From contig VMTC01000063.1 of NCBI GenBank assembly GCA_013791765.1, positions 1-64,000 of the forward strand: DNA of 64,000 nucleotides. The letters run 5' to 3'. Numbering within the stretch: position 1 is the first letter of the stretch; each line of letters begins with the position of its first letter. The position numbers and the translations under genes were made by a program. Below, in pieces: positions 19,408-45,798 of the stretch. The notes under the pieces are model-generated. The model saw only the letters and a list, made by a program, of their open reading frames with translations, searched no databases and was not told where the DNA came from. Source of the DNA: Rhodoferax sp. (GTDB lineage Bacteria; Pseudomonadota; Gammaproteobacteria; Burkholderiales; Burkholderiaceae_C).

Positions 19408-19433
19408 GAACCAGCCGATCATTGAGCGAAAAA

Positions 19434-20282
19434 ATGGATGCATTTAAGGGAATGAAGACGCGAACCAAGCGGCACCTCAAGGTGTTGAGGCGCATGTTCA
19501 TCAATACCATGTGGTCTTTTGGCCCGGATGAGTTGCAGCGCCAGCTGCTTGGGCTGGGTGTCGGGCGAGGTGAGACGGTGCTGGTCCACAGTTCTTTCGA
19601 CGCCTTTAAAGGCTTTCAGGGCAAGCCGAGCGATGTCATAGCCGTGCTGCAAGCTGCGGTCGGCATCGAGGGTGTGCTCATGATGCCGACCATGACGTTC
19701 TCTGGCACCGCTGTCGCCTACGCCCGAAGCGATCCACTGTTTGATGCAGCGCGTACACCGTCAAAGATGGGCCTGCTGACCGAACTGTTCAGACGCTCGC
19801 CGCAGGTGCTGCGCAGTGTGCACCCGACTCACTCGGTGGCGCTTTGGGGGCGTGATGCCGCAGTCGTCGCTAGCGGGCACCATCTCGCGCGCACACCTTG
19901 CGGAGTCGGCACGCCATTTGATGCCCTGCTCAAACGCAACGGCAAAATTCTCTTGCTGGGTACAGATATCGGTGTACTGACCTTCTTTCACTTGCTGGAA
20001 GAGACGTTTGAAACCGAACTGCCTGTGGCGCCGTTCACGCAAGAGGTCTTTCATTTGCGCTCGAAAACCATGGACGGTCGCATCTTGGACAGCAGTTGCC
20101 GCCTGTTTGAAGCAACGGTCTCGCGGCGTCGCAATTTACACAAGATGGTTCCCTATTTAAAGAGGGACGGGGCCTGGCGCGAGGCCAAGGTTGGGGGCTT
20201 AAGGGTCACCGTATTGTCTGCCGCAGCGGTAGAACAGGCAGTGGGGCAAATGATTCAGCAAGGAGTTTATTGTTATGACTGA
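19434..20282 (+). CDS. AAC(3)-family N-acyltransferase-like protein
   Basis: 282 residues from the ATG at 19434; an upstream TTG and an ATG at 19452 are alternatives. The aminoglycoside 3-N-acetyltransferase family motifs are present: VLVHSSFDAF at the acyl-CoA binding start, SVHPTHSVALWG with the catalytic His region, and TPCGVGTPFDALL. Family members outside resistance genes acylate amino groups of sugars and other small molecules, and several occur in polysaccharide clusters. Together with the FkbH-like protein and the ACP immediately downstream, it probably transfers an acyl group to an amino sugar of the repeat unit. A role in antibiotic resistance is not suggested by context. Its end overlaps the FkbH-like gene by eight bases. 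Confidence 0.8.
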   Translation: MDAFKGMKTRTKRHLKVLRRMFINTMWSFGPDELQRQLLGLGVGRGETVLVHSSFDAFKGFQGKPSDVIAVLQAAVGIEGVLMMPTMTFSGTAVAYARSDPLFDAARTPSKMGLLTELFRRSPQVLRSVHPTHSVALWGRDAAVVASGHHLARTPCGVGTPFDALLKRNGKILLLGTDIGVLTFFHLLEETFETELPVAPFTQEVFHLRSKTMDGRILDSSCRLFEATVSRRRNLHKMVPYLKRDGAWREAKVGGLRVTVLSAAAVEQAVGQMIQQGVYCYD

Positions 20283-22248
20283 GAGTAACAACGTCGTATT
20301 GCCCAAACGCACTGCTGACAATAGTGCCGAGTTGCGCAACTCGATTTCGCAGAGTCTCAAGGAGGGTGCGATGGCATCGGCGCATCAGGGTGCGCGCGCC
20401 TTGCTGAACAGCAGCTCTGGTCTGCTCAATTACAGATTTCTGCGACAACTTGTGAAGGAAATGCCGCCCCAATTGCAAGGGATCAAGCGCTACCGGGTGG
20501 CATTGCTTTCGTCGTTCTCGATTGAATTCATTCAGGATGCGCTGATCGCCTATGGCTTTGCCAATGGCCTGCGCATTGAAATCTACCAGTCAGGATTTGG
20601 CTTGATTAGCCAGGAGATACTGGATCCATGCAGCGGTCTCTACGCGTTTGCCCCGGATGTAGTGGTTCTGGCCATAGAGGGTGAAGACTGGCTGCCTGAG
20701 GTCTATACCGATTTCATGGATGCTGATCAGGCCAGCGTCGAGCTTGAGCAGCTTGTCGATAATTTCAAGAAAAAAATGGCTGGCTTGCTGCGCACTTTTC
20801 GAGCCGCGAGCACCGCGCCTTTGCTGATTCACAACCTGGCGCAACCCCGATTTCGAAGGGCTGGCATTGCTGATATGGGCCTGACGCGTGGGCAGGCAAG
20901 ACTGGTCATAGAGCTGAATCTCGCCCTGGCCGATGCAAGTGCCGACATCGTCGCTGCACATGTCGTGGATTACGCCGGGCTGGTGACCCAGTATGGCGCG
21001 CAGCATTGGTACGACGCCCGAATGCGCTTGTACGCCAAGGCGCCCATCGCGATGGGTGCGCTCGAAAATTTGGCGCAAGAGTACCTGCGGTATTTTCGGG
21101 CGCTCACGGGCTTGAGCAAGAAGTGTCTCGTGGTTGACCTTGATAACACGCTTTGGGGTGGCGTCCTCGGTGAGGACGGAATTGACGGAATTCAACTCGG
21201 GGCCAATTACCCCGGCAGTGCTTTTGTCGAGTTTCAACGGGCCATTCTTGACCTTTATCGGCGCGGTGTCATATTGGCCGTTGCCAGCAAGAACAACCCG
21301 GCCGATGTGGAAGCCGTGTTTTCGAATCACCGTTTCATGATGATTCGCAAAGCGCATTTTTCCGAGCTGCAAATACACTGGAATCCCAAGAGCGATTCAA
21401 TCCAGACAATTGCCGCTCGACTCAATATTGGTCTGGAACACATGGTTTTTGTTGATGACAATCCGGCTGAATGTGAACAGGTTCGGCGTGAATTGCCCAT
21501 GGTCACCGTCATTGAGTTGCCGCCGAGACCCGAACTTTATGTGCAGACTCTTTGTTCGCAAGGCTGGTTTGACACCCTGGGTCAGTCCGATGAAGATCGA
21601 CGTCGGGGCCAGTTGTACCAGCAGCGTGCCATGGCCGAATCGGCGCGCTCTGCCAGCACCAGTCTCGAAGACTATTACCGCGATTTGGACATGCAGCTAA
21701 CCCTCGCATCGGTTGATTCCAGGTCGCGAACGCGGGCTGCTCAGCTCACCCAGAAGACGAATCAGTTCAATGTCACAACGGTTCGGTACAGCGAGGCGGA
21801 GCTGGATGCCCGCCTCGGTGATCCTGATCACCTGCTTGTGACCGTCGGCGTTCTTGATCGTTTTGGCGACAACGGCATCGTCGGCCTCATGATGGCGCGC
21901 GCTGATGCCAGTCGACTCGCTATTGACACTTTCTTGCTCAGTTGCCGTGTCATCGGGCGCACCGTGGAGACGGCCATGCTGGCTTACCTCTGCGAGGCCG
22001 CGCGCCAGCGGGGGCTCAGCAAGCTGTGCGGGCATGTGGTGCCGACCGAGAAAAATGTGCCAGCGCGCGATCTGTTTGAGAAACATGGCTTTCGTAAGCT
22101 GGGCGAAGATGAATCTGGCACCACCACTTGGGAGTTGGATCTGGCCACGACCACGGTGCAAGCACCTGACTGGTTCGAGATGCAGGCGTCACCCGCCATC
22201 AGCAAGTTGGCCGATCTGGCCCCCACCCCGGAGCCCATGCATGTCTAA
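20275..22248 (+). CDS. FkbH-like HAD-IIIC family protein with N-terminal SGNH-like and C-terminal GNAT-like domains
   Basis: 657 residues. Residues of about 70-270 resemble the N-terminal region of FkbH-like proteins. The HAD domain starts at LVVDLDNTLWGG, with the DLDNT nucleophile motif at 288-292, VASKNNP as motif II and MVFVDDNPAEC as motif III/IV. The C-terminal part (about 480-650) has a GNAT-like layout ending in DLFEKHGFRKLG. FkbH proteins load a three-carbon unit from 1,3-bisphosphoglycerate on an acyl carrier protein to give glyceryl-ACP in polyketide pathways. The adjacent ACP gene, which overlaps it by eight bases, fits such a role here, probably for an acyl substituent of the polysaccharide. 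The exact acyl group is not predictable. Confidence 0.85.
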   Translation: MTESNNVVLPKRTADNSAELRNSISQSLKEGAMASAHQGARALLNSSSGLLNYRFLRQLVKEMPPQLQGIKRYRVALLSSFSIEFIQDALIAYGFANGLRIEIYQSGFGLISQEILDPCSGLYAFAPDVVVLAIEGEDWLPEVYTDFMDADQASVELEQLVDNFKKKMAGLLRTFRAASTAPLLIHNLAQPRFRRAGIADMGLTRGQARLVIELNLALADASADIVAAHVVDYAGLVTQYGAQHWYDARMRLYAKAPIAMGALENLAQEYLRYFRALTGLSKKCLVVDLDNTLWGGVLGEDGIDGIQLGANYPGSAFVEFQRAILDLYRRGVILAVASKNNPADVEAVFSNHRFMMIRKAHFSELQIHWNPKSDSIQTIAARLNIGLEHMVFVDDNPAECEQVRRELPMVTVIELPPRPELYVQTLCSQGWFDTLGQSDEDRRRGQLYQQRAMAESARSASTSLEDYYRDLDMQLTLASVDSRSRTRAAQLTQKTNQFNVTTVRYSEAELDARLGDPDHLLVTVGVLDRFGDNGIVGLMMARADASRLAIDTFLLSCRVIGRTVETAMLAYLCEAARQRGLSKLCGHVVPTEKNVPARDLFEKHGFRKLGEDESGTTTWELDLATTTVQAPDWFEMQASPAISKLADLAPTPEPMHV

Positions 22249-22477
22249 AAATATTGAGCAAACGGTACGCGATGTGATGTCGATCATTCTGAATTTGGAT
22301 GCAGCCGAGATCAGTGACAACACGTCGATGGACAACACGCCAGGTTGGGACTCGGCCAACCACATCAATCTCGTTCTGGCCCTGGAGGAGGAGTTCTCGA
22401 TCTCGTTCGAGGTCTCTGAATTCGAATTGATGGTGTCGTATTTTGACGTTGTCCAGGTTGTGAGCGCCAAGCTTTAG
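22241..22477 (+). CDS. Acyl carrier protein
   Basis: 78 residues, start at the ATG at 22241, which overlaps the end of the FkbH-like gene. It has the four-helix ACP size and the phosphopantetheine site in GWDSANHINL, where Ser38 would carry the prosthetic group. The DSA form of the site is common in ACPs of small biosynthetic clusters, while fatty-acid ACPs usually have DSL. The acidic helix ALEEEFSISFE after it is typical for partner binding. It should carry the acyl unit made or loaded by FkbH-like and MaoC-SDR proteins and deliver it to the acyltransferase. Confidence 0.88.
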   Translation: MSKNIEQTVRDVMSIILNLDAAEISDNTSMDNTPGWDSANHINLVLALEEEFSISFEVSEFELMVSYFDVVQVVSAKL

Positions 22478-22506: not shown

Positions 22507-23742
22507 ATGAATCAGAAATTTTTGGCGCCTGCGCAGCTTAAGTTCGACGATATTGCCGTCGGCCAAAGCTTTGAGGTGTGGCGAACTTTTTCCTCGCAGG
22601 ACGTAGACGCGTTCGCAACCCTGAGTGGCGACTACAGCCCCCTGCATGTGGACGCTGCCTACGCTGCTGGCACCGAGTTTGGGGCGCCGGTCGTGCATGG
22701 GATGCTGTTAGCGTCGCTGTTCTCGCAGCTTGTGGGTATGCGTGTGCCGGGCAAACACGCGCTGTATTTGGGGCAAGACCTCAGCTTTCGACGGCCGGTG
22801 CGCATTGATGAGCCGGTGCGCGCCGTCGTCAAAGTGGTGGGTAAGAGTGATGCGACCCGCACTCTCGTGCTCAATACCGAGATCCGCAGCGTGGACGACA
22901 AGGTGCTGGTCATGGGCAGCGCAAAGGTCAAGGTCAGGGACGACTCGCCGCCAACGCAGGTGCTTGGGGAACGGCTGGCGTCCGCGCCAATTCAGTCGGG
23001 TCGACCGGTAGCGTTGGTGACGGGGGCATCCCGAGGGATCGGTGCGGAGATTGCCAGAACGCTGGCCAAGAATGGTTATGCAGTGGCGCTGAACTATTTT
23101 CGCAGTGAGGAACGGGCACGGCAAGTGGTGCGAGAGATAGAGCTCGCCGGCGGCATAGCCTTCGCCGTGCAAGCGGATGTACGCGACGCTGAGTCGGTGT
23201 CAGGGTTGCTGGCGGAAGTGTTGCAGACGCTTGGCCCGCCGCGCGTGCTGGTCAATGCAGCGGTGGGGGAACTCATCAACCGTCCACTGGGCGAACTCTG
23301 CTGGCCCGATTTTGAGAACCACATGGCGTATCAAGTCAAGGCGGTGTTGCAGTTGTGCCAAGCGGTCTATCCCGCCATGAAAGCTGCCGGCGGTGGCGCT
23401 GTCGTCAATATTTTGTCGCAAGTGACCGCTGGGGTTCCGGCTACCGGCATGGCCGACTATGTGTGCGCCAAATACGCGCTGTTGGGCCTGTCCAAGGCCA
23501 TGGCGGCTGAGTGGGCCGATGCGCATATTCGGGTCAATATGGTCTCGCCCGGCCTGACACGGACCGACTTGACAGAACACTATCAGGAGCGTGTCTTCAA
23601 GATGGAAGCCGCAAGGACTCCCCTGAAGAGAATTGCGACGCCGGCCGATGTGGCCCATGCAGTGGCTTATCTGGTGGCTGACGAGGCCTCGTTTCTGACC
23701 GGCGTCAACCTGTTGGTGGCCGGTGGTCAAGTCATGTTTTAA
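22507..23742 (+). CDS. MaoC-like hydratase and short-chain dehydrogenase fusion
   Basis: 411 residues in two domains. Residues 1-145 are a MaoC/R-hydratase hot-dog domain with the hydratase site SGDYSPLHVD (Asp42 and His47). Residues 165-411 are a classical SDR with TGASRGIG at 172-179, an NAA replacing NNAG, and the catalytic Tyr318 and Lys322 in YVCAK. The two activities, enoyl hydration and 3-oxoacyl reduction, act on neighbouring steps around 3-hydroxyacyl thioesters, so the fusion may make or use a 3-hydroxyacyl-ACP on the adjacent carrier protein. 3-Hydroxybutyryl groups are known N-substituents of bacterial polysaccharide sugars, so this is a reasonable inference. A purifying Shine-Dalgarno is not obvious at its ATG. 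Confidence 0.83.
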   Translation: MNQKFLAPAQLKFDDIAVGQSFEVWRTFSSQDVDAFATLSGDYSPLHVDAAYAAGTEFGAPVVHGMLLASLFSQLVGMRVPGKHALYLGQDLSFRRPVRIDEPVRAVVKVVGKSDATRTLVLNTEIRSVDDKVLVMGSAKVKVRDDSPPTQVLGERLASAPIQSGRPVALVTGASRGIGAEIARTLAKNGYAVALNYFRSEERARQVVREIELAGGIAFAVQADVRDAESVSGLLAEVLQTLGPPRVLVNAAVGELINRPLGELCWPDFENHMAYQVKAVLQLCQAVYPAMKAAGGGAVVNILSQVTAGVPATGMADYVCAKYALLGLSKAMAAEWADAHIRVNMVSPGLTRTDLTEHYQERVFKMEAARTPLKRIATPADVAHAVAYLVADEASFLTGVNLLVAGGQVMF

Positions 23743-23752
23743 GGAATGCCAT

Positions 23753-25051
23753 ATGAAGCCGGTCACCATTGCACGCATCCTTCGCCACCAATACCTGCGC
23801 GGTGGCGTGCGAAGCGCTTATTGGGCTGCGGCTGCGGTCACGCGGGAGCTTCGCGCGCTGGTGCCAGCCCACAAGCAAGCCTTTCGCAGCGAAGTGATTC
23901 GCAGCCAGTGGCAGTTTGCCACCGCGATGCCGCAACCTGTGCACGGCGAAACACAAGAGCGCGCGCGGGCTGCCGTGCAGTGGCTGCTGCAGGCGCAGGC
24001 CGCGAGCCCGGATGATGGCGTGTCGCTGGGCTACTTTCCATGCGACAGCGACAAAAGCCGGGAGGGGGCAGGGTGGCGCGCCTCGTACCCCGAGACCACC
24101 GGCTACATCATTACCTCTCTGCTGGCCTTCTCGGCAGAGTTTGACGACGCAGCCGTGGCCGCAGCGGCGATGCGCATGGCTGCGTGGGAAACGGCAGTAC
24201 AGATGCCATCTGGCGCCGTCCAAGGTGGGCCGGTTTGTCCGCCCGAAAGACAGACCGCCGCGATATTCAATACTGGCATGGTGCTGGACGGCTGGTGTTC
24301 CGCCTACCGCCATTCAGGTGACCCAAAGCTGATGGTTGCTGCGAGAAAGGCCGCAGACTTTCTGGTGGGCGATCTGGACGAGCAGGGCTATTTCAAAACC
24401 AATGGCGCCTTCGTCAGTGCGGGCGAGATCAAGACCTACAGTTGTCTGTGCGCCTGGTCCATTTACCGCTTTGGAGAATTGGCCCAGGACGAGTCCTACC
24501 AGCGCGCGGCGGTTCGAGTCATCGAAGCCGCGTTGCGCCAGCAGCAGCCCAATGGCTGGTTTGCCCACAATTGTCTGACCCATTCCGACGCACCACTCAC
24601 GCACACGATTGGCTACACCCTGCAGGGCGTTCTTGAGGTCGGTGCTCTCGCCGGGCGTCCCGACTTCATTCACGCTGTTCGGCGCAGCGTTGATGCGATT
24701 CTGCCGCGCATCGAGAGCAACGGCTACCTGCCGGGGCGCTTCTATGCCGACTGGGAGCCCGCCGGTTTTTCCTCCTGCCTGACCGGTTCGGCGCAGATCG
24801 CCATCGTGGCATACCGCTTGTTCGATTTGACCGGGCAGACCAGCTACCGCCTACAGGCTGACAAGCTGGTAGATTTTTTAAAGGCGCTGCAGTTGCGCCA
24901 GTCCGATGATGCCGCCGTGGTGGGGGCGTTGGCGGGGTCGTTTCCGCTTATGGGCTCTTACATGCGGGCAGGTTATCCGAACTGGGCTACCAAGTATTTG
25001 CTCGACGCGCTGTTGCTGCAGCAGCGTTTTGACAGCGCCGCCCAATCATGA
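23753..25051 (+). CDS. Six-hairpin (alpha/alpha barrel) glycosidase-like protein of unknown function
   Basis: 432 residues from the ATG at 23753, which has AAGGA eight bases upstream. The protein is mostly helical, with repeated pairs of Ala-rich helices and conserved aromatic loops (FPCDSDKSREGAGWRASYPETTGY, then NTGMVLDGW, and SCLTGSAQIAIVAYRL). This is the look of the six-hairpin glycosidase superfamily, which also includes epimerases and lyases. No signal peptide is visible, so it may act in the cytoplasm or at the inner face of the membrane. Related proteins occur next to acyl-modification and flippase genes in polysaccharide loci. Its stop overlaps the flippase start by four bases. The catalytic activity is unknown. 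Confidence 0.6.
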   Translation: MKPVTIARILRHQYLRGGVRSAYWAAAAVTRELRALVPAHKQAFRSEVIRSQWQFATAMPQPVHGETQERARAAVQWLLQAQAASPDDGVSLGYFPCDSDKSREGAGWRASYPETTGYIITSLLAFSAEFDDAAVAAAAMRMAAWETAVQMPSGAVQGGPVCPPERQTAAIFNTGMVLDGWCSAYRHSGDPKLMVAARKAADFLVGDLDEQGYFKTNGAFVSAGEIKTYSCLCAWSIYRFGELAQDESYQRAAVRVIEAALRQQQPNGWFAHNCLTHSDAPLTHTIGYTLQGVLEVGALAGRPDFIHAVRRSVDAILPRIESNGYLPGRFYADWEPAGFSSCLTGSAQIAIVAYRLFDLTGQTSYRLQADKLVDFLKALQLRQSDDAAVVGALAGSFPLMGSYMRAGYPNWATKYLLDALLLQQRFDSAAQS

Positions 25052-26520
25052 GCCTGCGCGCTCAAGCCCTCTCGGGATTTCGTTGGACCGCCAGCGTCAG
25101 GCTGCTTAGCCAGGTGATTACCTGGGGAATCACCCTGGTGGTGATCCGGCTGCTAACGCCTGCGGACTATGGTCTGCTCGCCATGGCCACGGTGTTTGTG
25201 TCCTTTCTCGCCATGTTTTCCGAGTTGGGTCTAGGCGCGGCCGTCGTGCAAAAAGCCGATGTGGATGAGCAGCTGCTCAAGCGGGCGTTCGCGCTGATTC
25301 TTGTGATTCATTTCCTGTTGGCCGCACTGCTGCTGCTGTCGGCGCCACTGATCGGGACTTTCTATAACGAGCCACGTGTGGTCCCCGTTATCCGCGTCCT
25401 GTCGCTGCAATTTGTTCTTGCCGGCTTTGCCGTCATCCCAGACGCGCAGCTGCAACGCCGAATGGAGTTTCGCAACCGATCCCTGCTTGACCTGGCCGGC
25501 GCCATCGTGGCCAGCATCACCACGCTGTTCATGGCGCTGGGCGGGGCGGGTGTCTGGGCGCTGGTGTCTGGATTCGTTCTTAGCCAGCTCGTCAAAACCA
25601 TAGGCTCAAACTGGCTCTCGCCGTTCCGGCACTGGCCTGAATTCTCTGTGAATGGAATGAGATCGTTGCTGCGTTTTGGTGGCTACTTCACTGCCATTCA
25701 GGCGCTCTCGACCTACTTCTCTCAAATCGACATGCTCATTTGCGCCAAGCTGCTTGGTAAAGAAGTCCTTGGCATCTATTCGGTCGCCATGCACCTGGCC
25801 TCCTTGCCGGTTCAGCGTATTTCAGGGCTTGTCAATCAAGTTGCCTTTCCGACCTTTTCCCGGATGCAAGAGGACTTGCACAGAGTGGGTACCAATGTGT
25901 TGTCAGGCGCACGAATTTTGAGCGTATTTGCGTTCCCCCTTCTGTGGGGCATGTCAAGCGTCGCGCCTGAAATCGCTGAGGTGATTCTGGGCGCCAAATG
26001 GACATCTGCAACTTTTCCGTTACAGGTTTTGGCAACGATCCTTCCATTGAGAATGGTGGGGAACTTCGTTGCAACTGCGGTGCAGGGCGTTGGGCGCTCC
26101 GATATCGTGCTGCGTAATGTGGTCTGGGTGTCTTTGCTGTCGCCGTTTGCATTCTTTGTTGGTGCTAACTGGTGGGGGCTGCCCGGACTTTGCTTCGCCT
26201 GGCTGCTGATTTCCCCCCTCGCTTTTTTGCAAGGAATGATGCGCAATTTGCCTGCGCTTGGCCTGCGACTGGGTCAAATGGCCATGGTGATGGTGCCGGC
26301 TGCTGCTGCTGCTTCCATCATGTACGGCGCCATTGCGGCAACACGGCAAGTGCTACTGGCCGGGCAAGGGGGCGTGATTCGGCTGGTCGTTCTGGTGGGT
26401 GTCGGCGCTTTTGTCTACTGCGCCGCGTCGCTCGCGATTAACCGCAGAGGCTCGCAAGAATTGATCGAAATGCTGCGGAGCATCGTCTCAGTTAAGCGGG
26501 AAAAATTATCCGAGGGATAG
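25048..26520 (+). CDS. Oligosaccharide flippase, MOP superfamily (WzxC-like)
   Basis: 490 residues, about twelve to fourteen membrane helices. The start SGFRWTASVRLLSQVITWGITLVVIRLLTPADYGLLAMA is a typical polysaccharide transporter N-terminus, and the GLGAAVVQ stretch near residue 62 is characteristic of the WzxC/colanic acid subgroup. Its role is to move the undecaprenyl-diphosphate-linked repeat unit from the cytoplasmic to the periplasmic face, before polymerisation by the O-antigen-ligase-like proteins encoded at 3692 or 8194. The end is three bases before the start of the first Mur ligase-Pth fusion gene, with the GAGGG ribosome site of that gene inside its last codons. Confidence 0.88.
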   Translation: MSLRAQALSGFRWTASVRLLSQVITWGITLVVIRLLTPADYGLLAMATVFVSFLAMFSELGLGAAVVQKADVDEQLLKRAFALILVIHFLLAALLLLSAPLIGTFYNEPRVVPVIRVLSLQFVLAGFAVIPDAQLQRRMEFRNRSLLDLAGAIVASITTLFMALGGAGVWALVSGFVLSQLVKTIGSNWLSPFRHWPEFSVNGMRSLLRFGGYFTAIQALSTYFSQIDMLICAKLLGKEVLGIYSVAMHLASLPVQRISGLVNQVAFPTFSRMQEDLHRVGTNVLSGARILSVFAFPLLWGMSSVAPEIAEVILGAKWTSATFPLQVLATILPLRMVGNFVATAVQGVGRSDIVLRNVVWVSLLSPFAFFVGANWWGLPGLCFAWLLISPLAFLQGMMRNLPALGLRLGQMAMVMVPAAAAASIMYGAIAATRQVLLAGQGGVIRLVVLVGVGAFVYCAASLAINRRGSQELIEMLRSIVSVKREKLSEG

Positions 26521-26523
26521 CAG

Positions 26524-28536
26524 ATGCAAATTGAAATAGAGACGAAAAAGCTCGGCCAGCGAAGCTCTATGGAGATCGTCAGTAGGCTCTCGGAGGGCGC
26601 GCGCTGGCGGCTACGCTGGGTCTATTTGCACACCGTGTATTGGCTTTACACGCAGTGTCTGTATTGGGTGAGTTTTGTTTACCGCAGAACGCTTCAGCAA
26701 CCGGTGTTTATAGGCGTCACGGGAAGCGCCGGCAAGTCCACGGCAAAGGACATCACGGCAAGTATCCTCGCGCTGCACCTCAAAAAGGGTCGAAAGGTCC
26801 AGGGTAGCGCAAACGGGCTGATGGACGTGATCCGTCTTATCCTCGGCACGGAGCACTCGGATGCCTACAGCATTGCCGAAATCGCCACAACCGGTCCCGG
26901 GTCGCTGGATCGAATGCTGGCGCTCTTCAAACCAACCGTAGCGGTGGTGACCAATATCGGTGGTGACCACCTGTCCGCGTTTCGCAGTCTTGATGCTATT
27001 GCTGACGAAAAGGGAAAGTTGGTTAAATCCCTGCCCACCACTGGCCTTGCAATTCTGAATGCAGACGATCCCCGTGTACTTAACATGCGCTCAAATTTTC
27101 CGGGCCGATCAGTGACCTACGGCTTGAGCGCTGACGCTATGCTGCGGGCTGAATCAGTCAATGCGGTCTGGCCAGATCGACTCTCCATGACGGTGACCTG
27201 GAATGGACACACCGCACGAGTGAAAACACAACTTTGCGGCGATCACTGGGTGTCTGCGGTGCTCGCAGCTTTGGCGACTGGGCTGGCATTGGGTGTGCCA
27301 TTGTCTGTTGCTGTGCAGGCGGTAGCCGCTGTGGAGCCGTTCGAAGGGCGCATGAGTCCTGTCCAACTTGGCGACGGCGTGACCTTCATACGGGATGACT
27401 GGAAGGCGCCGTTGTGGACCGTCGCGCCCACCTTCGCGTTCATGCGGCACGCGTTTGCCAAACGAAAGATCATCGTGATGGGGACCATCTCGGACTATGT
27501 TGGTGATTCCAGCAAGCGCTATGTAGAAGTCGCACGCCAGGCGCTGGCGGTTGCCGACGCCGTCTTGTTTGTCGGTTCCCGATCATCCGCCTGCCTACGC
27601 GCCAAGAAAGGTATCGCCGATCAGTTGTTTGCATTCCCTTCACTTCGGAACGCTTCGACATTTCTACAGAGCTATCTCCAGCCGGGCGACTTGATTCTAT
27701 TAAAGGGGTCGACCCGGCCCGATCACCTGGAGCGCCTGATCTTCGCACGGACAATCGGGGTGAAATGCTGGCGCTCGGACTGTGGCTACATGGTGTTCTG
27801 CAATGCATGCGACCGCTTCCATGTGGCGTATGGCCAGGATAGTGCGCAAGCTGAAAGCAACACGACCCACGCACCAACCACGCCGATGCCCACCGGTGTT
27901 GACCTGTCGGCAAGCCGGTCGCCACCCCTGTTCGTTGTTGGGTTGGGGAACCCGCAAGAGCGCTATGAGTCCACGCCACACAATGTTGGTCGCAGCGTCG
28001 TAAACATCCTGGCGCAACGCCTTGATCAAGTCTGGGAGCCCGCGGGTGGGTCTGCGATGATCGTCAGGACTCGCCTGAACGGACTTCAGATTTGTTTGAT
28101 CAAGCTTCTCACGCCGATGAACCACGCCGGGTCAACCCTGCGCGGTCTTGCCCAGGATTTCGGTCTTGGCTTCAATTTGGCCAGTTGCATTCTTGTGCAT
28201 GATGACTTGGAATTGCCCATCGGAACAGTGCGGGTGCGTATGCGCGGGGGCGATGGCGGACACCGTGGTGTGCAATCGATAGTCCAGGCTTTTCAAGATG
28301 ACCAGTGCCGCCGCGTCAAAATTGGTGTGGGTCGGCCGCCGCCTGGTCTACCGGTGCTTGATTACGTGCTCTCGCCCTTCGCATCTGCCCATCTAGAGAG
28401 CATCGACAGAGCCTACGGCACGGCGATCGACCGGGTTATTGACCTGATTCGGCAGGAGTCAGCGGCAAGACTGTTAATGGCCCCGAGTCGACCGCGCCAC
28501 GGGCGAGTATCGAACTCCAAGGAGTTGACCCCATGA
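26524..28536 (+). CDS. Mur ligase (MurF-like) and peptidyl-tRNA hydrolase-like fusion protein, copy 1
   Basis: 670 residues. The Mur ligase central domain begins with the ATP loop GVTGSAGKST at 64-73 and continues with VAVVTNIGGDHL and LNADDPRV. The C-terminal ligase domain follows with FIRDDWKAP and VMGTISDYVGDSSKRY, the MurF counterpart of the DSYNANP and GDM-EL regions. The MurF substrate-recognition N-domain is missing. A linker holds Cys415, Cys420, Cys426, Cys429 and His433. Residues 470-655 are a Pth fold: GLGNP with Asn476, His486 of TPHNVG, PMNHAG and HDDLELP with Asp560. These match the E. coli catalytic set Asn10, His20, Asn68 and Asp93; Arg581 replaces Asn114. The start has GAGGG seven bases upstream. 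Function unknown; ATP-dependent amide formation is likely. Confidence 0.85.
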   Translation: MQIEIETKKLGQRSSMEIVSRLSEGARWRLRWVYLHTVYWLYTQCLYWVSFVYRRTLQQPVFIGVTGSAGKSTAKDITASILALHLKKGRKVQGSANGLMDVIRLILGTEHSDAYSIAEIATTGPGSLDRMLALFKPTVAVVTNIGGDHLSAFRSLDAIADEKGKLVKSLPTTGLAILNADDPRVLNMRSNFPGRSVTYGLSADAMLRAESVNAVWPDRLSMTVTWNGHTARVKTQLCGDHWVSAVLAALATGLALGVPLSVAVQAVAAVEPFEGRMSPVQLGDGVTFIRDDWKAPLWTVAPTFAFMRHAFAKRKIIVMGTISDYVGDSSKRYVEVARQALAVADAVLFVGSRSSACLRAKKGIADQLFAFPSLRNASTFLQSYLQPGDLILLKGSTRPDHLERLIFARTIGVKCWRSDCGYMVFCNACDRFHVAYGQDSAQAESNTTHAPTTPMPTGVDLSASRSPPLFVVGLGNPQERYESTPHNVGRSVVNILAQRLDQVWEPAGGSAMIVRTRLNGLQICLIKLLTPMNHAGSTLRGLAQDFGLGFNLASCILVHDDLELPIGTVRVRMRGGDGGHRGVQSIVQAFQDDQCRRVKIGVGRPPPGLPVLDYVLSPFASAHLESIDRAYGTAIDRVIDLIRQESAARLLMAPSRPRHGRVSNSKELTP

Positions 28537-30506
28537 AGCCCGTTGAACACGACCCAGGCGGGTCGTACGCTGGTGAATCGAATTGGGGAAGAGACCTTGC
28601 CAAAAAACTGGTGGGTTTCGGGAAAATGCGCATCCCAAAAATGCTTGGGAAGCTTTCGGGCGGGGTTGGTTGGCGCCTGCGCCAACTCTATGATCAGGCC
28701 TTGTATCGGCTCACTTTTATCCATCGTCGCAGCCTGTCCAACACCGTGTTCATTGGTGTGACCGGGAGTGCCGGAAAGACGACTACCAAGGACTTGATTG
28801 CCAGTGTTCTGGAGCGGAGTTTCAGCAAGGGTCGAAAGAATCCAGGTTCGCTGAACTGGCCTGAAGACATGGTTCGCATGGTGCTGAGCACACGCCAGTC
28901 GGATGCCTTTTGTATAGCAGAAATATCCGCCCACAGGCCGGGGGCAATGGACTTACCGCTGGCGCTGGTTCGTCCCAAGGTGGGGGTTGTGACCAATATT
29001 GGGTCCGATCACATTTCCGCTTACAAGAACCGCGATGCCATCGCTGATGAAAAAGGCAAGCTGATCAGGTCGCTGCCAAGCGGCGGTGTCGCCATCTTGA
29101 ATGCTGATGACCCGCGGGTACTCGCGATGCGGTCATTGTTTGCAGGGCGAACTGTCACCTACGGGCTGTCCAGTGATGCGCAACTTCATGGCGAGGCGAT
29201 TCACTCCGCCTGGCCCAAGCGCTTGTCCTTGACGGCCACATGGCATGACGAGTCCGTTCAGGTGACAACTCAACTCTGTGGCGTCCATTGGGCTCCTGCC
29301 GTGTTGGCGGCGCTGGCAACCGGTGTTGCGCTTGGCGTGCCTCTGCGTGTTGCGGCGCAGGCGGTTGCGGACGTTCCTGCTTTTGAAGGGCGCATGGCCC
29401 CGGTTGAAGTGGATGGCATCACGTTCATTCGTGATGATTGGAAGGCGCCGCTGTCGACCATCGAGCCGGCATTCGAATTCATGCGTTCAGCCCAGGCTAA
29501 GCGCCGGGTTGTGGTGTTGGGAACCATCTCGGACTACCAGGGCGACTCTACCCGACGCTACGTCGAAATAGGCGAGTCGGCGCTGGCATTCGCCGACTGC
29601 GTGGTCTTTGTCGGTCCCCGGGCGTCAGCATCGCTGCGTGCGAAACGGGATGGGAACGCCGAGTTTCGTGCCTTTGCCTCACTGCGCGACGCATCTACGT
29701 ACCTACGCGCCTATCTCAAGGCTGGCGACCTGGTGCTGCTCAAGGGTTCACATAAAGCGGACCACATACAGCGCCTTATCATTCAATTGAAGACCGAGGT
29801 GCAATGCTGGCGATCAGACTGTGGTCGCCTGCAATCCTGTGAGACTTGTGAGCTCCTTCATGTTCCGTCGGGTCCGCAGGCGACAGACGCGGTTTTGATC
29901 AGCTCGTTCGCTAGCGCCGAATTGGCGCAAGCTGCTGAGGCTGTAACCGGCTTGCACCCGTCAACCGTCGTGCTTGTTGGCCTCGGTAATCCGGAGGCCG
30001 GCCGTTTTGATACGCCCCACAATGTCGGCTATCGCGCGCTGGACAGTCTGGCGCAACGCATGGCCCAGCCGTGGCACCGCGACGCAGACCTGGCGCTGGT
30101 GGTTCAGTGCCGGTGGCAGGGTGCAACGATTCTGATGATCAAGCCTCTGGCGCCGATGAACGAGATTGGCCCGGTACTCATCAAGCTGGCGAAGAAACTC
30201 GCATTCGAGGTGCGTCAATGTATTTTGGTTCACGATGATTTAGATCTCCCGATTGGCTCCGTGCGTGCGCGCTTGCGCGGTGGCGACGGCGGGCATCGTG
30301 GTGTGCGTTCGATTCTCCAGAGCTTTCAGGACGACAAATTTCGTCGGGTAAAGATTGGTGTTGGACAGCCCGAAGCGGGCCAATCCGTCATTGATTACGT
30401 GCTGACACCATTCCCGGCGACGCAGCATGCTGCCGTCGAGGCAGCCAACCGAACTGCAGTAGACCGGATTGTTGAGTTGATCCGCCAGGGTGTGACTGCG
30501 CCATGA
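28533..30506 (+). CDS. Mur ligase (MurF-like) and peptidyl-tRNA hydrolase-like fusion protein, copy 2
   Basis: 657 residues, the paralogue of the preceding gene along the whole length, starting in its stop codon (ATGA). The ATP loop GVTGSAGKTT lies at 75-84. The Cys4-His linker motif has the same spacing as in copy 1. The Pth-like part has GLGNP with Asn486, His496 of TPHNVG, PMNEIG, Asp568 in HDDLDLP, and again Arg (589) in place of Asn114. By eye about half to two thirds of aligned residues are identical over the ligase core, so the duplication is old enough for divergence of specificity. Both copies keep their catalytic residues, suggesting two enzymes with different substrates or a heteromer. 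It is followed after 61 bases by an asparagine-synthase homologue. Confidence 0.85.
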   Translation: MKPVEHDPGGSYAGESNWGRDLAKKLVGFGKMRIPKMLGKLSGGVGWRLRQLYDQALYRLTFIHRRSLSNTVFIGVTGSAGKTTTKDLIASVLERSFSKGRKNPGSLNWPEDMVRMVLSTRQSDAFCIAEISAHRPGAMDLPLALVRPKVGVVTNIGSDHISAYKNRDAIADEKGKLIRSLPSGGVAILNADDPRVLAMRSLFAGRTVTYGLSSDAQLHGEAIHSAWPKRLSLTATWHDESVQVTTQLCGVHWAPAVLAALATGVALGVPLRVAAQAVADVPAFEGRMAPVEVDGITFIRDDWKAPLSTIEPAFEFMRSAQAKRRVVVLGTISDYQGDSTRRYVEIGESALAFADCVVFVGPRASASLRAKRDGNAEFRAFASLRDASTYLRAYLKAGDLVLLKGSHKADHIQRLIIQLKTEVQCWRSDCGRLQSCETCELLHVPSGPQATDAVLISSFASAELAQAAEAVTGLHPSTVVLVGLGNPEAGRFDTPHNVGYRALDSLAQRMAQPWHRDADLALVVQCRWQGATILMIKPLAPMNEIGPVLIKLAKKLAFEVRQCILVHDDLDLPIGSVRARLRGGDGGHRGVRSILQSFQDDKFRRVKIGVGQPEAGQSVIDYVLTPFPATQHAAVEAANRTAVDRIVELIRQGVTAP

Positions 30507-30567: not shown

Positions 30568-32361
30568 ATGACAATTCTCGCAGGCGTCTTCAGTCGAGGG
30601 TCTTTGGCTCAAATTCCGGATTCAATTTGTGAGTCACTGAGAAAAAATATTTCGCGCGATCCCAATGATCGACCGATCGAATTTCGCGACACCCATGCAT
30701 TTTTGATCAAGGTTGACATCGGCGCATTCGATCGCCCGGCGCACCGCGTTGCACCCACAGGTTCTATCGCCATTCTTGCAGGCGAGCCGCTCCTCACTTG
30801 CCACGGCCCGACCGGCGTGGAACGCGATGCCCACCTGGCGTATCTGCAAAGCAAGTGGGATGAGGGCGACCTGCAAGCCCTGCGCAGCGCCAGTGGCACG
30901 TTTTGTGCCGCTTACTACAACGCAGCGAAAGGCATTGGCTATCTCGTGGCAGATCGGTTGGGGCTGCGCACTCTCTATTATTGTGTGCTCGACGATTTTG
31001 TCTATTTCGCCACCGCCTTGCGGATTTTGGAGGCGATCCCCGAGGTCCCCAAGGTGCTTGATATTCTGGCTGTGGCAGAAGCAACTGGCTTTGGCTATCC
31101 TTTTGGGGGTGGCACAGCCTACGCTGACATCAAGATGCTTATGCCTTGCGAGGTCTTGGCGCTTGAGCAAGGCGTTGTCACGGCAAGCCGGTACTTCAAT
31201 TGGGAAGCTATTGAGCCAATACGTTGCACGCAAGAAGAGGCAATGAGCAAGACCTACGGGCTGTTCGTGTCTGCAGTGCGCCGACGACTGCGCAGTGACA
31301 AGACGACATTTGCGTATCTCAGCGGCGGGCTGGATTCTCGTTGTGTGGTCGCAGCGCTTCGTTCAGAGGGTGCCAGGGCCTATACGTTCAATTTCTCATT
31401 GGCCAACACTCAAGACCAGGCCTTTGCATTGGCTTACGCGGAGAAAAGCGGCACCATTCACCACGAGTTGCCCACGGAGCCGGGACCAAACTGGTCGGCG
31501 GTGATGGCCGACACCTGGCGCTCGTGGCCTGGGCGACATCAACAGATGCCGGAGCATCCCAGTCTGGCCTGGACGGGCGAGGGCGGCAGCGTTGGACTTG
31601 GCCACGTCTATATCAGCCCGGAGATAGTGGCTCATCTGCGATCGGGGGATATGGACGGCGCTATTGACATCTATCTGCGCCAACAGAGCAAGACAATTCT
31701 GACCAGGATTCTGGAGCCTGAGCTTGGGGCGCAACTTCATGGTCATTTGCACGCGCGCTTGCTTAAGGAGCTTCGGGAGATTCGCTGTGCGGATCCCGTG
31801 CGAGCGTTCTACATTTTCTTGAACCTGAACGGTCCGAGACGGCACCTGGTCAATCACTTTGACACAATTGACCAGCATCGACTTGAGTTTCAAGTGCCTT
31901 TTTATGACAGTGAGCTGCTCGAGTACCTGACAGCGCTTCCTGCTGACCCTTGCCTGTACCACCAGTTCTACGTCAAGTGGCTGGCGCTGTTCGACCCTGC
32001 CGTTCGCGCGGTACCCTGGCAGACCTATCCGGGACATGTCCCCAGCCCGATTCCAATACCGCAGGACCTGCCTGACCAGTGGCGAGCGCCGGCGTCAGCC
32101 GATCATCGAACGAGGCTGGAGCACGAGTTGATGACGCGCAGCGCGGCCATGTTGTCTTGCGAAAATTTTCCGAGCTGCGTGCTCAGAAAAGTTAATCTGC
32201 AGGCCATGCGCTGGGCCTGCAAGCTTGGGCTCGGGAACTACAGCTACGCGCTTAAGGCTGCGCTGGCCTACTACCACTACTGGAATATCGCAGGCGGCAG
32301 ATATCAGTTGCCACCCGCTGTTGCGTCAGGGCGTCAAGCTAAGCTTGGTCACTTGGACTGA
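30568..32361 (+). CDS. Asparagine synthase-like protein lacking the glutaminase Cys
   Basis: 597 residues with GAAAGGG about eight bases before the ATG. The first half has an Ntn-like outline (TFCAAYYNAAKGIGYLVADRLGLRTLYY) but begins MTILAGVFSRG, so the nucleophilic Cys2 is absent. The second half has the pyrophosphatase loop SGGLDSR at 252-258, in place of SGGXDSS, and a segment near WTGEGGSVGLGH in the position of the GDGGDE region. Glutamine-dependent amidation is unlikely; acyl adenylation followed by attack of another amine fits better, as in beta-lactam and lasso-peptide cyclases of this family. Because it follows the two ligase-Pth fusions in the same direction, it may belong to the same pathway. 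Its last 13 bases overlap tail to tail with the TPR gene. Confidence 0.75.
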   Translation: MTILAGVFSRGSLAQIPDSICESLRKNISRDPNDRPIEFRDTHAFLIKVDIGAFDRPAHRVAPTGSIAILAGEPLLTCHGPTGVERDAHLAYLQSKWDEGDLQALRSASGTFCAAYYNAAKGIGYLVADRLGLRTLYYCVLDDFVYFATALRILEAIPEVPKVLDILAVAEATGFGYPFGGGTAYADIKMLMPCEVLALEQGVVTASRYFNWEAIEPIRCTQEEAMSKTYGLFVSAVRRRLRSDKTTFAYLSGGLDSRCVVAALRSEGARAYTFNFSLANTQDQAFALAYAEKSGTIHHELPTEPGPNWSAVMADTWRSWPGRHQQMPEHPSLAWTGEGGSVGLGHVYISPEIVAHLRSGDMDGAIDIYLRQQSKTILTRILEPELGAQLHGHLHARLLKELREIRCADPVRAFYIFLNLNGPRRHLVNHFDTIDQHRLEFQVPFYDSELLEYLTALPADPCLYHQFYVKWLALFDPAVRAVPWQTYPGHVPSPIPIPQDLPDQWRAPASADHRTRLEHELMTRSAAMLSCENFPSCVLRKVNLQAMRWACKLGLGNYSYALKAALAYYHYWNIAGGRYQLPPAVASGRQAKLGHLD

Positions 32362-35639: not shown

Positions 35640-36524
35640 TCAGGCCACCACCGCGTCATGGCTGCGTTGGCCTCGTGCCGATTGCTGTGTCAACCAGTCC
35701 AGCGTGAGTTGCTCAACCCGCTGGCGTGATACCGCGCTGGAGCAGGTGTGATCGACCTCGGACAAGCTATGGCGCTGCAAATGGGGGTGGGCCCAAGTGT
35801 CTTTCCAGGCGGCATCCGTGTTGACGTATTCCAAAAATTCCTTGGCCACGTAGTCATCGCCGCTTAACAGCAGCAAAATCTGGCCCTCAAAGCGCTGCCA
35901 GGCCTGCGCCATGCTGTGTTGAAAGCTTTGCTTTTCAGCGCGCAGCCAGCCTGAACCCGAGGTGGACAACCGGATGTTGTCGGTCAGATCACTCAGCGCG
36001 CCCAGCGCCATCTTGCCACTGAGTAATTTCTGCCAGAAGCTCTTTTGCATCAGGCGCTGCGTGTAGTAGTGCTTGATCTGGGTGCGCGCCAGACTGGCCT
36101 CGGAGCGTACCCAGGGGTTGAGCAGACACAAACCGGTCACGCGCGGGTCCTGCTTTTCAAAACAATAGAGCAACGCCGCCGAGGCGCCGTCGCACAGGCC
36201 CCATAAGACCACTTGCCGGACCGACGCCACACGTTGCTGCAGAGCGTCAATAGCCGCCGCAATGTCTGCGCTGACCGACTCAAACTGCCTGGGTTGACCT
36301 TCGCTGTCGCCCATGCCGCGGTAATCAAAACGCAGCACGGCAAAGCCGGCATTAGCCAAGGCGCGTGCCAACAACACAAACTGCCGATGGCTGCCAACGC
36401 GGTATTGGGGGCCACCCACCACCACCACCACGCCAATTTGGGCCGGGGTGTCGGGCTGACTGAGTATGCCCACCAGGCGCTCGCCCTCGGAGGCGAATGA
36501 GGCGGTCTCTTCGGTGTAACTCAT
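35640..36524 (-). CDS. Hydrolase 1, exosortase A system-associated (alpha/beta hydrolase)
   Basis: 294 residues from the ATG at 36524, inside the hydrolase 2 stop (ATGA). Alpha/beta hydrolase of the TIGR03100 type: the strand VVVVVGGPQYRVGSHRQFVLLAR gives the oxyanion region, DYRGMGDSEG the next turn, and the nucleophile elbow is WGLCDGASA, where Cys stands in the place of Ser (G-X-C-X-G). The family is restricted to XrtA loci and is thought to act on a thioester or ester of the ACP-bound acyl group; the substrate has not been shown. The Cys in the elbow suggests thioester chemistry like that of dienelactone hydrolases. Part of the leftward accessory operon. Confidence 0.85.
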   Translation of the reverse strand: MSYTEETASFASEGERLVGILSQPDTPAQIGVVVVVGGPQYRVGSHRQFVLLARALANAGFAVLRFDYRGMGDSEGQPRQFESVSADIAAAIDALQQRVASVRQVVLWGLCDGASAALLYCFEKQDPRVTGLCLLNPWVRSEASLARTQIKHYYTQRLMQKSFWQKLLSGKMALGALSDLTDNIRLSTSGSGWLRAEKQSFQHSMAQAWQRFEGQILLLLSGDDYVAKEFLEYVNTDAAWKDTWAHPHLQRHSLSEVDHTCSSAVSRQRVEQLTLDWLTQQSARGQRSHDAVVA

Positions 36525-37444
36525 GCGGCCAATACCTCTGCGCCAGCAGCGCAATGAAAAGTCGAGCTGACGCCCTGCGTGCTGCCAAACGCGACGGCGG
36601 CGGTAGTCGCTGTAATCAGCGCCGGCACATCCTCGATCTCTGCGCTTTGCCAGAAGGCGGGACCGTTGATGAGCCGGCTGCGTACCTCAAAGCCGCGCTG
36701 CTGCCATTGGGTCAGGGCTTCATTGGAGGCCGGGCTCAAAACGGCGTTTGTTCGGGTGGACATCTCAAACCATTCCAGGCGTCCCGGCTTCGTGGCTGGT
36801 CCGGGTAACAACACCGACTGTTCCAGGCCGCGGGCCAGCTCGGGCGCCAATTGGTAGCCGGCGACCTCCACTGGGGAGCCCTCATTCAACTGTTGGCGCA
36901 GACCCGCCATCACGTTCTTGGCCTGGTTGCTTTGCAAGTCAGCGGCCGCCTTCAGGCGCAGGAACTGTTGCAGCAGGGGCCGCCCAGCCGGCGGGGGCTG
37001 CCAGAACAGAAGGTGGCAGGGCTCGCTCATTTGACTGGCCGCCTCGACCGCCAGCAGGCAGCCGGCGCGCAAGCCCCACAGCCACAGTGGTGGGTTGCGG
37101 CCTTGTGGCCCGGGCGCGTGGTGGCGCTGGTGCAACCATCGACTGCCCCGCACCACGTCGTTGACCCAGCTTTGCCAGGTGGCGTCGCCGAAGTCACCCG
37201 AGCTGTCGCCACAGCCCAGCAGGTCGATTTGGAGCACCGCGCAGCCCGCCTGCGCCAGCGCGCGCGCCTGCAGTGCGGCCATGCGGCGTGCCTTGTTCAT
37301 CTCCTCAGAAAATGGATGAATATAGAGCACCAGGGCGCGCGCAGTGGGGCCCTGAGCCGCATAGAAGACGCAAAACCGTTGGTCAGCCGCGTTGGCCGCC
37401 GTCGCCCCAGCGGGCAGGAAGAAGCACTCGGCAGAAGCAGGCAT
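36521..37444 (-). CDS. Hydrolase 2, exosortase A system-associated (alpha/beta hydrolase)
   Basis: 307 residues from the ATG at 37444, seven bases after the ACP stop; an in-frame codon at 37480 would overlap the ACP gene. TIGR03101-type alpha/beta hydrolase: YIHPFSEEMNKARRM is the family signature in the oxyanion loop, DLLGCGDSSGDF the strand turn, and the elbow is LWGLRAGCLLA, which has Ala-Gly in place of Ser/Cys-X-Gly. With no nucleophile at the elbow it may be a non-catalytic partner of hydrolase 1, whose gene overlaps it, or use a different residue. The pair is always adjacent in XrtA loci as far as I recall. Confidence 0.84.
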   Translation of the reverse strand: MPASAECFFLPAGATAANAADQRFCVFYAAQGPTARALVLYIHPFSEEMNKARRMAALQARALAQAGCAVLQIDLLGCGDSSGDFGDATWQSWVNDVVRGSRWLHQRHHAPGPQGRNPPLWLWGLRAGCLLAVEAASQMSEPCHLLFWQPPPAGRPLLQQFLRLKAAADLQSNQAKNVMAGLRQQLNEGSPVEVAGYQLAPELARGLEQSVLLPGPATKPGRLEWFEMSTRTNAVLSPASNEALTQWQQRGFEVRSRLINGPAFWQSAEIEDVPALITATTAAVAFGSTQGVSSTFHCAAGAEVLAA

Positions 37445-37451
37445 AGGGAAC

Positions 37452-37706
37452 TCAGGCAACGGCGAGTTTGCGGCTGACAAAGTCGCTCAGCGACCCGAGC
37501 GTGGCAAAGGTGGCGCCGTCGATGTCATCGTCGTCCACGACCAATCCAAACTGGTCTTCCAGCGTGGTGATCAGTGCCACGACCGCCATCGAATCGAGTT
37601 CAGGGATGGCACCGAGCAGCGGTGTATCACGCGTGAAACTGGCGCTGCGCCCGTTCAAACATAGAGATTCGTCAATAACACGACGGACAGCTTGTGTGAT
37701 ATTCAA
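37452..37706 (-). CDS. Acyl carrier protein, XrtA-associated
   Basis: 84 residues. The start chosen is the TTG at 37706, because AAGGGAG lies six bases upstream and the helix NITQAVRRVIDESL begins directly after it; longer frames extend into the divergent promoter region. The phosphopantetheine site is PELDSMAVV with Ser39, and the following helix LITTLEDQFGLVVDDDDID is strongly acidic, as in ACPs. It is the first gene of the leftward operon, facing the acyl-CoA ligase across 126 bases. The ligase, the two hydrolases and the decarboxylase are its likely partners in making an acyl or amino-acyl unit for the polymer. Confidence 0.83.
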   Translation of the reverse strand: MNITQAVRRVIDESLCLNGRSASFTRDTPLLGAIPELDSMAVVALITTLEDQFGLVVDDDDIDGATFATLGSLSDFVSRKLAVA

Positions 37707-37832
37707 TTCAAACTCCCTTGGAACTGCGAGCTGACTGATGACAAAAATGATTGCAGGAGTCAAGGGCCCAAGGGTGCCGCGCCAGAAAGTTCTGGGCTTG
37801 CGTTTTCTCAACCATCACGATTGTTTGTCACC
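37707..37832. promoter_or_regulatory. Divergent spacer of the two XrtA accessory operons
   Basis: 126 bases between the TTG start of the ACP (leftward) and the ATG of the acyl-CoA ligase (rightward). Both operons must have promoters in or near this spacer. There is an AT-rich tract around 37741-37756, but no -35/-10 pair stands out. A TGAC...TTGCA pair at about 37738-37754 has the wrong spacing for sigma-54. Assigned by gene arrangement only. Confidence 0.4.
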
Positions 37833-45760: not shown

Positions 45761-45798
45761 GTCTGTTTTCTTCTTCAACTTCACATCAGGGTAACTTT

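Follow-up and report, generated by a model that had tools for sequence, protein, structure and literature searches.

In Mur ligases, the P-loop, an acidic Glu, a D/EH motif and a C-terminal KG have catalytic roles, while the substrate class of peptidyl-tRNA hydrolase (Pth) is N-blocked aminoacyl-tRNA. We describe here two adjacent genes, P1 and P2, that join these two enzyme types in single protein chains. They lie on a 64,000-nucleotide stretch of DNA from Rhodoferax sp. (GenBank assembly GCA_013791765.1, contig VMTC01000063.1, positions 1 to 64,000), which we call the window. Among the closest described systems is the lipid II amidotransferase MurT/GatD, which the available part of its description presents as a Mur-type ligase with a four-cysteine element, a partner protein and a lipid-linked substrate (PMC6085368). 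For Pth, the available part of a review names K103, K105 and R133 as contacts to the tRNA acceptor stem, N10 as the residue that tells N-blocked from free aminoacyl-tRNA, and N114 as located at the catalytic water and oxyanion (PMC11202043).

In our view, P1 and P2 are probably amide ligases in exopolysaccharide synthesis. The original prediction, made from the sequence of this stretch, knew of no described system with this architecture; consistent with this, our literature search, with most subscription journals outside its coverage, found no paper on a Pth/Mur ligase fusion. A search for papers on ATP-grasp amidoligases and exopolysaccharide peptides, judged by titles and the opening lines of abstracts, likewise turned up none on the fusion.

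Two tandem fusion genes

The two adjacent paralogues that had been predicted were both found as open reading frames, with 54% identity between their products, and the P1 stop and P2 start codons overlap as ATGA. P2 could also start later, at a GTG at 28611, which would give 631 amino acids. The features of the pair are as follows.

26524..28536, + strand: P1, Mur-ligase/Cys4/Pth fusion protein, 670 amino acids (open reading frame, Pfam, NCBIfam)
26716..27279, + strand: P1 Mur ligase middle (ATP-binding) domain, residues 65-252, P-loop GSAGKS (Pfam PF08245, alignment)
27346..27711, + strand: P1 Mur ligase C-terminal domain, residues 275-396 (Pfam PF02875)
27766..27810, + strand: P1 Cys4 element, CWRSDCGYMVFCNAC (sequence reading, alignment)
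27934..28458, + strand: P1 Pth domain (Pfam PF01195)
28533..30506, + strand: P2, second fusion protein, 657 amino acids (open reading frame, Pfam, sequence reading)
28758..29321, + strand: P2 Mur ligase middle domain, P-loop GSAGKT (Pfam, alignment)
29388..29753, + strand: P2 Mur ligase C-terminal domain (Pfam)
29805..29849, + strand: P2 Cys4 element, CWRSDCGRLQSCETC (sequence reading)
29973..30491, + strand: P2 Pth domain (Pfam, fold match)

The Pfam E-values for Mur_ligase_M, Mur_ligase_C and Pept_tRNA_hydro are 2.6e-30, 2.4e-08 and 9.5e-40 in P1, and 5.9e-32, 7.1e-12 and 2.2e-41 in P2. No N-terminal Mur_ligase domain, which binds the uridine diphosphate (UDP) substrate, was listed for either protein at E up to 1, in agreement with the predicted MurF-like ligase without its N-terminal domain. 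The Pth-like domain had been called complete. It is recognized by Pfam (about 1e-40) and by NCBIfam model TIGR00447 (131 bits, above its cut-off of 100), but the Pth halves end short of the housekeeping Pth C-terminus.

AlphaFold2 modeling of P2 from the GTG at 28611, with a 10-row alignment, gave a mean predicted local distance difference test score (pLDDT) of 79.4, with the ligase and Pth parts mostly above 70 and a long helix at the N-terminus. In a Foldseek comparison of this model with the PDB, MurF 4qf5 was the top match, and among the 50 matches listed Pth 2z2i reached a template modeling score (TM-score) of 0.93 over the target length, so that the C-terminal region does have the predicted Pth fold.

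Both domains are under purifying selection, and the linker is much freer. With synonymous divergence (dS) saturated, the ratio of nonsynonymous to synonymous rates (omega) is 0.07-0.15 for the ligase and Pth domains when P2 is paired with the fusions of L039 and L040, and up to 0.22 for Pth in the P1/P2 pair; for the linker it is 0.57-0.71 in four of five pairs, the fifth yielding no value. A pseudogene or chance reading frame was considered and is ruled out by this purifying selection together with the presence of 19 fusions in 9 genomes. In the window genome, which spans 4.17 Mb in 136 contigs, contig 62 carries a separate pth with a housekeeping score, and Mur ligases match at seven further places, of which four form a cluster on contig 44. 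The host thus has pth and mur genes of its own, and the P1/P2 fusions are extra.

The ligase half and the Cys4 element

The best model for the ligase half is murF (NCBIfam TIGR01143), with 175 and 190 bits, below the cut-off of 288.6. Alignment with the host MurF shows that the P-loop, acidic Glu, DH motif and C-terminal KG are all present in P1 and P2. Both also have the Lys next after the DH motif (EKG), a residue missing from some array copies and from the host MurF; because the host's own MurF is without it, we dropped the loss of this Lys as a mark of dead array copies. The host MurF (L147 7716-9158) has Asn at the position that carries Lys in many Mur ligases, which we take to be the site of the carbamylated Lys. 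The DSYNAN motif of the host MurF aligns with DD[WFY]KAP of the fusions, and RDD[WFY]KAP occurs in all 19 of them.

Ahead of the P-loop region stand 63 residues in P1 and, in P2, 48 counted from the GTG at 28611 or 74 from the first ATG. This extension measures 33-94 residues with a net charge of +5 to +12 in all 25 aligned rows (18 fused, 7 standalone), for some of which (P2, G021_a, G985_a, G985_b and G1164_2) the start codon was picked by eye, and with the first 100 residues of L131 removed before the alignment counts. No transmembrane anchor was seen ahead of the P-loop region, in the sense of a 19-residue stretch with mean Eisenberg hydrophobicity above 0.48.

Between the ligase and Pth halves, following the ligase C-terminal domain, lies an element that the original prediction had missed, CWxxxCx5CxxC, which we call Cys4. 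It was found in 19/19 fusions, and its four Cys are present in 25/25 aligned rows, L131 having CA for CW; the Gemmobacter relative described below has it, and the host MurF does not. In the P2 model the element has a low pLDDT of about 50-68, and its position in the chain differs from that in MurT. No model for a Cys4 Mur-ligase family, nor one covering the fusion architecture, was seen among the NCBIfam matches.

Distribution and relatives

Surveying genomes for the same fusion, we found at least 19 copies, some of them paralogues, in at least nine genomes, with tandem arrays of 2 or 4 copies in five of the nine. There are two copies in the window genome, one in L039 (Rhodoferax), one in L040 (Undibacterium), four in L041 (Propionivibrio), two, about 40 kb apart, in L042 (Burkholderiaceae Sulfur_bin.5), four in G027, two each in G021 and G985, and one in G328. 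Rhodoferax, Undibacterium and Propionivibrio are Betaproteobacteria; G027, G021 and G985 belong to the host's family, and G328 to its order.

These numbers come from a profile scan of genome contigs, in which the best 80 loci were kept and L039-L043 were read, and from scans of family, order and phylum samples, in which four candidates were scored per genome and genomes recur between samples. In the host-family sample, at least 4 of 399 genomes have the fusion, the window genome included, and it was found in none of the four other genomes of the host genus listed there. At least 4 of 399 genomes in the order sample match the ligase profile, those of the window and G328 being fused and G254 and G459 not, and at least 5 of 398 do so in the phylum sample, namely the window genome and four of one genus without Pth. 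In the family of G328 the count is 1 of 22 genomes. L132 (a second G459 match), L119-L128 and L137-L144 are known by their matches only, and further fusions beyond those counted are likely. The occurrence is scattered, in the manner of genes that spread by transfer.

Two side observations concern individual loci. The neighboring L041 copies at 8436-10382 and 10366-12258 share an exact 375-base stretch and are 79% identical over 1697 columns by blastn, a pattern that resembles gene conversion but may also stem from the assembly of this metagenome-assembled genome (MAG). A further Mur-type ligase of 504 amino acids (L042 11832-13346) adjoins an L042 fusion; it has the Pfam M and C domains and no Pth, and no Cys4 element was seen by eye.

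Standalone Cys4 ligases, that is, relatives without a Pth half, were found at L043 (a Gammaproteobacteria MAG), L130 (G254), L131 (G459), L133-L136 and on a Gemmobacter plasmid. L130 adjoins ATP-grasp genes and is near an XrtA amidotransferase homologue, and the Gemmobacter gene stands among glycosyltransferases and a pyruvyltransferase; the neighbors of L043 and L133-L136 are unlike the glycan genes of the window. L133-L136 represent four genomes of one genus, each with a lone Cys4 Mur ligase, which in L133 and L134 has a short-chain-reductase-like gene beside it. A single Pth, with a housekeeping score, was counted in each of the five standalone genomes checked, namely G254, G459, G588, G608 and the L043 genome. 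Because such relatives exist, the Cys4 Mur ligases are probably the older family, to which Pth was added. In a Pth tree, the 18 fused halves separate from nine housekeeping Pths with support 100/100; the second fusion of the L042 genome was found after the trees were made and is absent from them.

Residues kept in the Pth half

We compared the 19 fused Pth copies with nine housekeeping Pths of the host's bacterial family, using a residue numbering that we presume to be that of E. coli Pth. N10, H20, N68, D93 and H113 are invariant in 19/19 fused copies. E94 is replaced by D and D118 by S in all 19, and Y15 is retained in 14.

Seventeen positions are basic in at least eight of the nine housekeeping Pths, and only four of these, K103, K105, R131 and R133, are basic in at least 17 of the 19 fused copies. 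All three acceptor-stem contacts (K103, K105 and R133, basic in 17/19, 19/19 and 19/19) are among the four survivors, with p = 0.006, a value that goes with alignment columns that are not independent and with a 17/19 limit for 'kept' that was chosen after the data had been seen. With a limit of 15/19 a fifth position counts and p is 0.015. The three positions had also come out of an earlier comparison, which used 18 copies and a less refined alignment.

The exopolysaccharide locus and its association with the fusion

The window carries an XrtA/PEP-CTERM exopolysaccharide locus, by markers above curated cut-offs. Its other features are as follows.

205..2124, + strand: XrtA/PEP-CTERM system amidotransferase, TIGR03108, above cut-off
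3692..4996, + strand: O-glycosylation ligase, exosortase A system-associated, TIGR03097, above cut-off
19422..20282, + strand: Antibiotic_NAT-type N-acyltransferase (NCBIfam, Pfam)
20275..22248, + strand: FkbH-domain protein (NCBIfam)
22241..22477, + strand: acyl-carrier-protein-like open reading frame, 78 amino acids (sequence reading by eye only)
22507..23742, + strand: short-chain reductase of the 3-oxoacyl-acyl-carrier-protein reductase type (NCBIfam, below the cut-offs of the models shown)
25048..26520, + strand: MOP/Wzx-like flippase, directly upstream of P1 (NCBIfam, below the models' cut-offs)
30568..32361, + strand: asparagine-synthase-like protein, directly downstream of P2 (NCBIfam, Pfam)
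35640..36554, - strand: hydrolase 1, exosortase A system, TIGR03100, above cut-off
36521..37480, - strand: hydrolase 2, exosortase A system, TIGR03101, above cut-off
37692..39488, + strand: acyl ligase forming adenosine monophosphate, exosortase A system, TIGR03098, above cut-off
39475..40731, + strand: pyridoxal-phosphate decarboxylase, exosortase A system, TIGR03099, above cut-off
42291..48570, + strand: PrsK, PrsR and PrsT of the XrtA/PEP-CTERM system, above cut-off

An Aquincola strain requires PrsT and a sugar transferase associated with PEP-CTERM to form flocs, according to the available part of PMC9850573. No match to the exosortase XrtA gene itself was obtained with the 29 window open reading frames against NCBIfam (E 1e-3, 1e-25 or 1e-10), a search confined to these reading frames. 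The asparagine-synthase-like protein begins MTILAG, where the XrtA amidotransferase at 205 begins MCGITG; it is without the N-terminal Cys, and its amine is therefore probably not glutamine-derived ammonia. It is a possible third amide-forming step. Over the stretch compared, gene order in the Rhodoferax MAG L039 matches that of the window, and L039 has a single fusion. As further observations on the locus, a 1056-residue open reading frame (8194-11364) has no NCBIfam match at 1e-25, and those at 23756-25051 and 18394-19407 have no Pfam match at 1e-3; the former has a counterpart in L039 at 74% identity.

The fusion goes with the XrtA locus, yet most such loci are without it. TIGR03098 is above cut-off in 14 of 18 chosen genomes: in all nine with the fusion and, among those without, in G254, G967, G1036, G1098 and G149 and not in G121, G459, G588 or the L043 genome. 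In the family sample it occurs in 37 of 150 genomes, 3/3 with the fusion versus 34/147 without (Fisher 0.014, these association counts being uncorrected for kinship). In six of the nine genomes (that of the window, L039, L041, L042, G328 and G027) the fusion lies among exopolysaccharide genes, the call for G027 resting on three genes in common with the window.

A similar association is seen with the sugar-transfer-associated ATP-grasp family (ATPgrasp_ST), which has a role in glycan loci. It matches in 8 of 14 chosen genomes, namely seven of the nine with the fusion and G254; among XrtA-positive, fusion-free genomes from the genera of the window or G021 the count is 0/4 (Fisher 0.02 against 7/9). 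The window and L039 genomes gave no ATPgrasp_ST match at E 1e-12. These genes adjoin the fusions in L041, G027 and G328 and share the contig in the L042 genome; two of them stand beside the fusions in L041, L035 and L129, and two are on the contig in the L042 genome.

Proposed function and alternatives

We propose that P1 and P2, as ATP-dependent amide ligases, would each add one residue, an amino acid or a similar amine, to the precursor of an XrtA-type exopolysaccharide. A short basic helix at the N-terminus, standing where MurF has its UDP-binding domain, perhaps holds the Mur half close to the membrane. This half would convert a carboxylate, supplied by a uronate, an N-acyl group or the residue added before, into an acyl phosphate and couple it with the amino group of an aminoacyl-tRNA. 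That step would yield an N-blocked aminoacyl-tRNA, which matches the known substrate class of Pth; ester cleavage by the Pth half would then release the tRNA and leave a fresh carboxylate on which the following ligase could act. What the analysis shows is the domains, the residue patterns, the tandem copies and the locus; we infer the contact with the membrane, the glycan acceptor, the amino-acid donor, the use of tRNA and the order of steps. We hold the cycle of ligation to aminoacyl-tRNA followed by release through Pth tentatively, as a possibility somewhat short of an even chance. A further extension, in which the fusions would form a tRNA-dependent assembly line for peptides on the exopolysaccharide, independent of the ribosome and of nonribosomal peptide synthetases, with the number and order of the copies (2 or 4) setting the peptide sequence, is doubtful. 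That amino acids are added to a glycan, perhaps by way of aminoacyl-tRNA, had been suggested in the original prediction; this reading fits the evidence better than its rivals, because the XrtA marker is found in 9/9 genomes, ATP-grasp genes in 7/9, and the acceptor-stem contacts are kept.

Several observations weigh against the tRNA-dependent glycan reading. N114 is altered in 19/19 fused copies (to R in 17 and K in 2), a loss that may impair hydrolysis of normal peptidyl-tRNA, so that the predicted retention of catalytic residues is true of the Mur motifs and of N10, H20, N68 and D93 and not of this position. R19 has become P in 18 copies and V in one, all copies have lost F/Y66, and at the lid lysine K142 just 7 of 19 have a basic residue. 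The tRNA-side surface seems to have been kept and the acyl side rebuilt, with positive charge near the carbonyl site; the kept basic patch adjoins the active site, however, and could have a structural reason, and the test of it used housekeeping Pths alone for comparison. In the Mur tree, in which several forks are weak and two standalone rows sit on long branches, L130, from a similar locus without Pth, falls inside the fused clade as sister to an L042 fusion (100/99). Pth can therefore be dispensed with; one fusion event and a later loss of Pth in the L130 line would be the simplest account. Of four other genomes of the window genus examined, three carry the XrtA marker but not the fusion, which is therefore not needed for such a locus. 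In G021, G985 and the L040 genome, where no exopolysaccharide genes were seen beside the fusion, ATPgrasp_ST lies elsewhere.

The altered active site bears directly on two alternatives. In one, the ligase takes free amino acids or amines, free amino acids being the usual nucleophiles of Mur ligases, and the Pth fold has turned into an esterase or deacylase whose target is an ester in the precursor of the glycan, a carboxylate being held by R/K114. The universal change of N114 and the clade-wide changes at R19, F/Y66, E94 and D118 speak for this, but the survival of the acceptor-stem contacts among the few kept basic positions is left unexplained, and we regard this alternative as rather unlikely. 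The loss of N114 is also compatible with a Pth half that has become a non-catalytic adaptor binding tRNA or protein, the Mur half doing all the chemistry and the loss of Pth in L130 being tolerated. The plant protein CRS2, which is among the PDB matches, is said to be an adaptor of this kind without catalysis, and the position of L130 in the fused clade, in a genome whose sole Pth has a housekeeping score, points the same way. Against an adaptor stand the invariance of N10, H20, N68, D93 and H113 and the purifying selection on the Pth half, and we consider it unlikely.

The kept tRNA patch and N10, together with the relatives without Pth, would also be explained if Pth served for clean-up or editing: a ligase that uses free amino acids would sometimes acylate aminoacyl-tRNA, and Pth would recycle the jammed tRNA. 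The Pth with a housekeeping score that is present in 8/8 genomes checked and in the window genome should, however, do this in trans, and nothing in such a role accounts for a Pth in each tandem copy, which makes it improbable. Finally, the pair could serve peptidoglycan synthesis or another function outside glycan synthesis. No exopolysaccharide genes were seen within 10-20 kb of the fusion in L040, G021 and G985, by gene comparison or by eye; this speaks for such a function and confines the predicted exopolysaccharide setting to six of nine genomes, that of the window among them. All three of these genomes carry the XrtA marker elsewhere, and the host has other Mur ligase genes, mostly in a cluster elsewhere, so we find this very improbable; a role in peptidoglycan was set aside as the leading explanation because the host has these other mur genes and a separate pth.

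If tRNA-dependent assembly of glycan peptides is true, it would be categorically new. FemABX-type transferases are a known route from charged tRNA to cell-surface polymers; the tRNA step proposed here would be a new one, with amino acid specificity set by the tRNA. The results also suggest that the Pth fold, joined to an amide ligase in a single chain, has a second role beyond quality control in translation, and they point to a Cys4 Mur-ligase family in glycan loci. What XrtA-type exopolysaccharides carry thereby becomes testable.

Comparison with known systems

The fusions resemble MurT in having the central and C-terminal domains of Mur ligases and a hydrolase as partner, which for MurT is GatD, supplying nitrogen (PMC6085368), and Cys4 may be a counterpart of the zinc-ribbon-like four-cysteine element of MurT. 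In contrast to the Cys4 element, which follows the C-terminal domain, the Cys-rich part of MurT is an insertion that helps to form the GatD interface, and the partner of MurT is a glutaminase (PMC6085368), whereas the fusions have Pth in the same chain. The MurT profile NF052464, whose cut-off is 800 bits, gives P1 and P2 scores of 22.8 and 24. MurF is the best sequence model and the best fold match of the ligase half, but the fusions are without the UDP-binding domain, score below the cut-off, have DSYNAN replaced, and have gained Cys4 and Pth. They share with Pth1 the fold (TM-score 0.93 to 2z2i), N10, H20, N68, D93 and the acceptor-stem patch, and differ from it in the replacement of N114 by R/K and of R19 by P/V, the loss of F/Y66, a shorter C-terminus and the attached ligase.

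Peptide aminoacyl-tRNA ligases (PEARLs) use ATP, and we know of none with a Pth domain. Their likeness to the fusions would lie in the proposed logic only, a carboxyl end being extended by an amino acid from aminoacyl-tRNA; they are related to tRNA-Glu-dependent dehydratases, as given in the available part of PMC11920963, have another fold and act on peptides. ATPgrasp_ST proteins are similar in having a ligase-type fold in glycan loci, but the fold is a different one. The sheaths of Leptothrix and Sphaerotilus have a Cys-containing peptide, and no ligases for them are known to us. This thiopeptidoglycan comes from related bacteria and is an exopolymer with amino and thiol groups, a surface product of the kind proposed here; the available part of PMC8264430 describes thiol, carboxyl and amino groups in the sheath glycoconjugate. 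We treat the link to the Leptothrix sheath as a lead only. The component families of P1 and P2 are known, while their combination and its setting are new to us.

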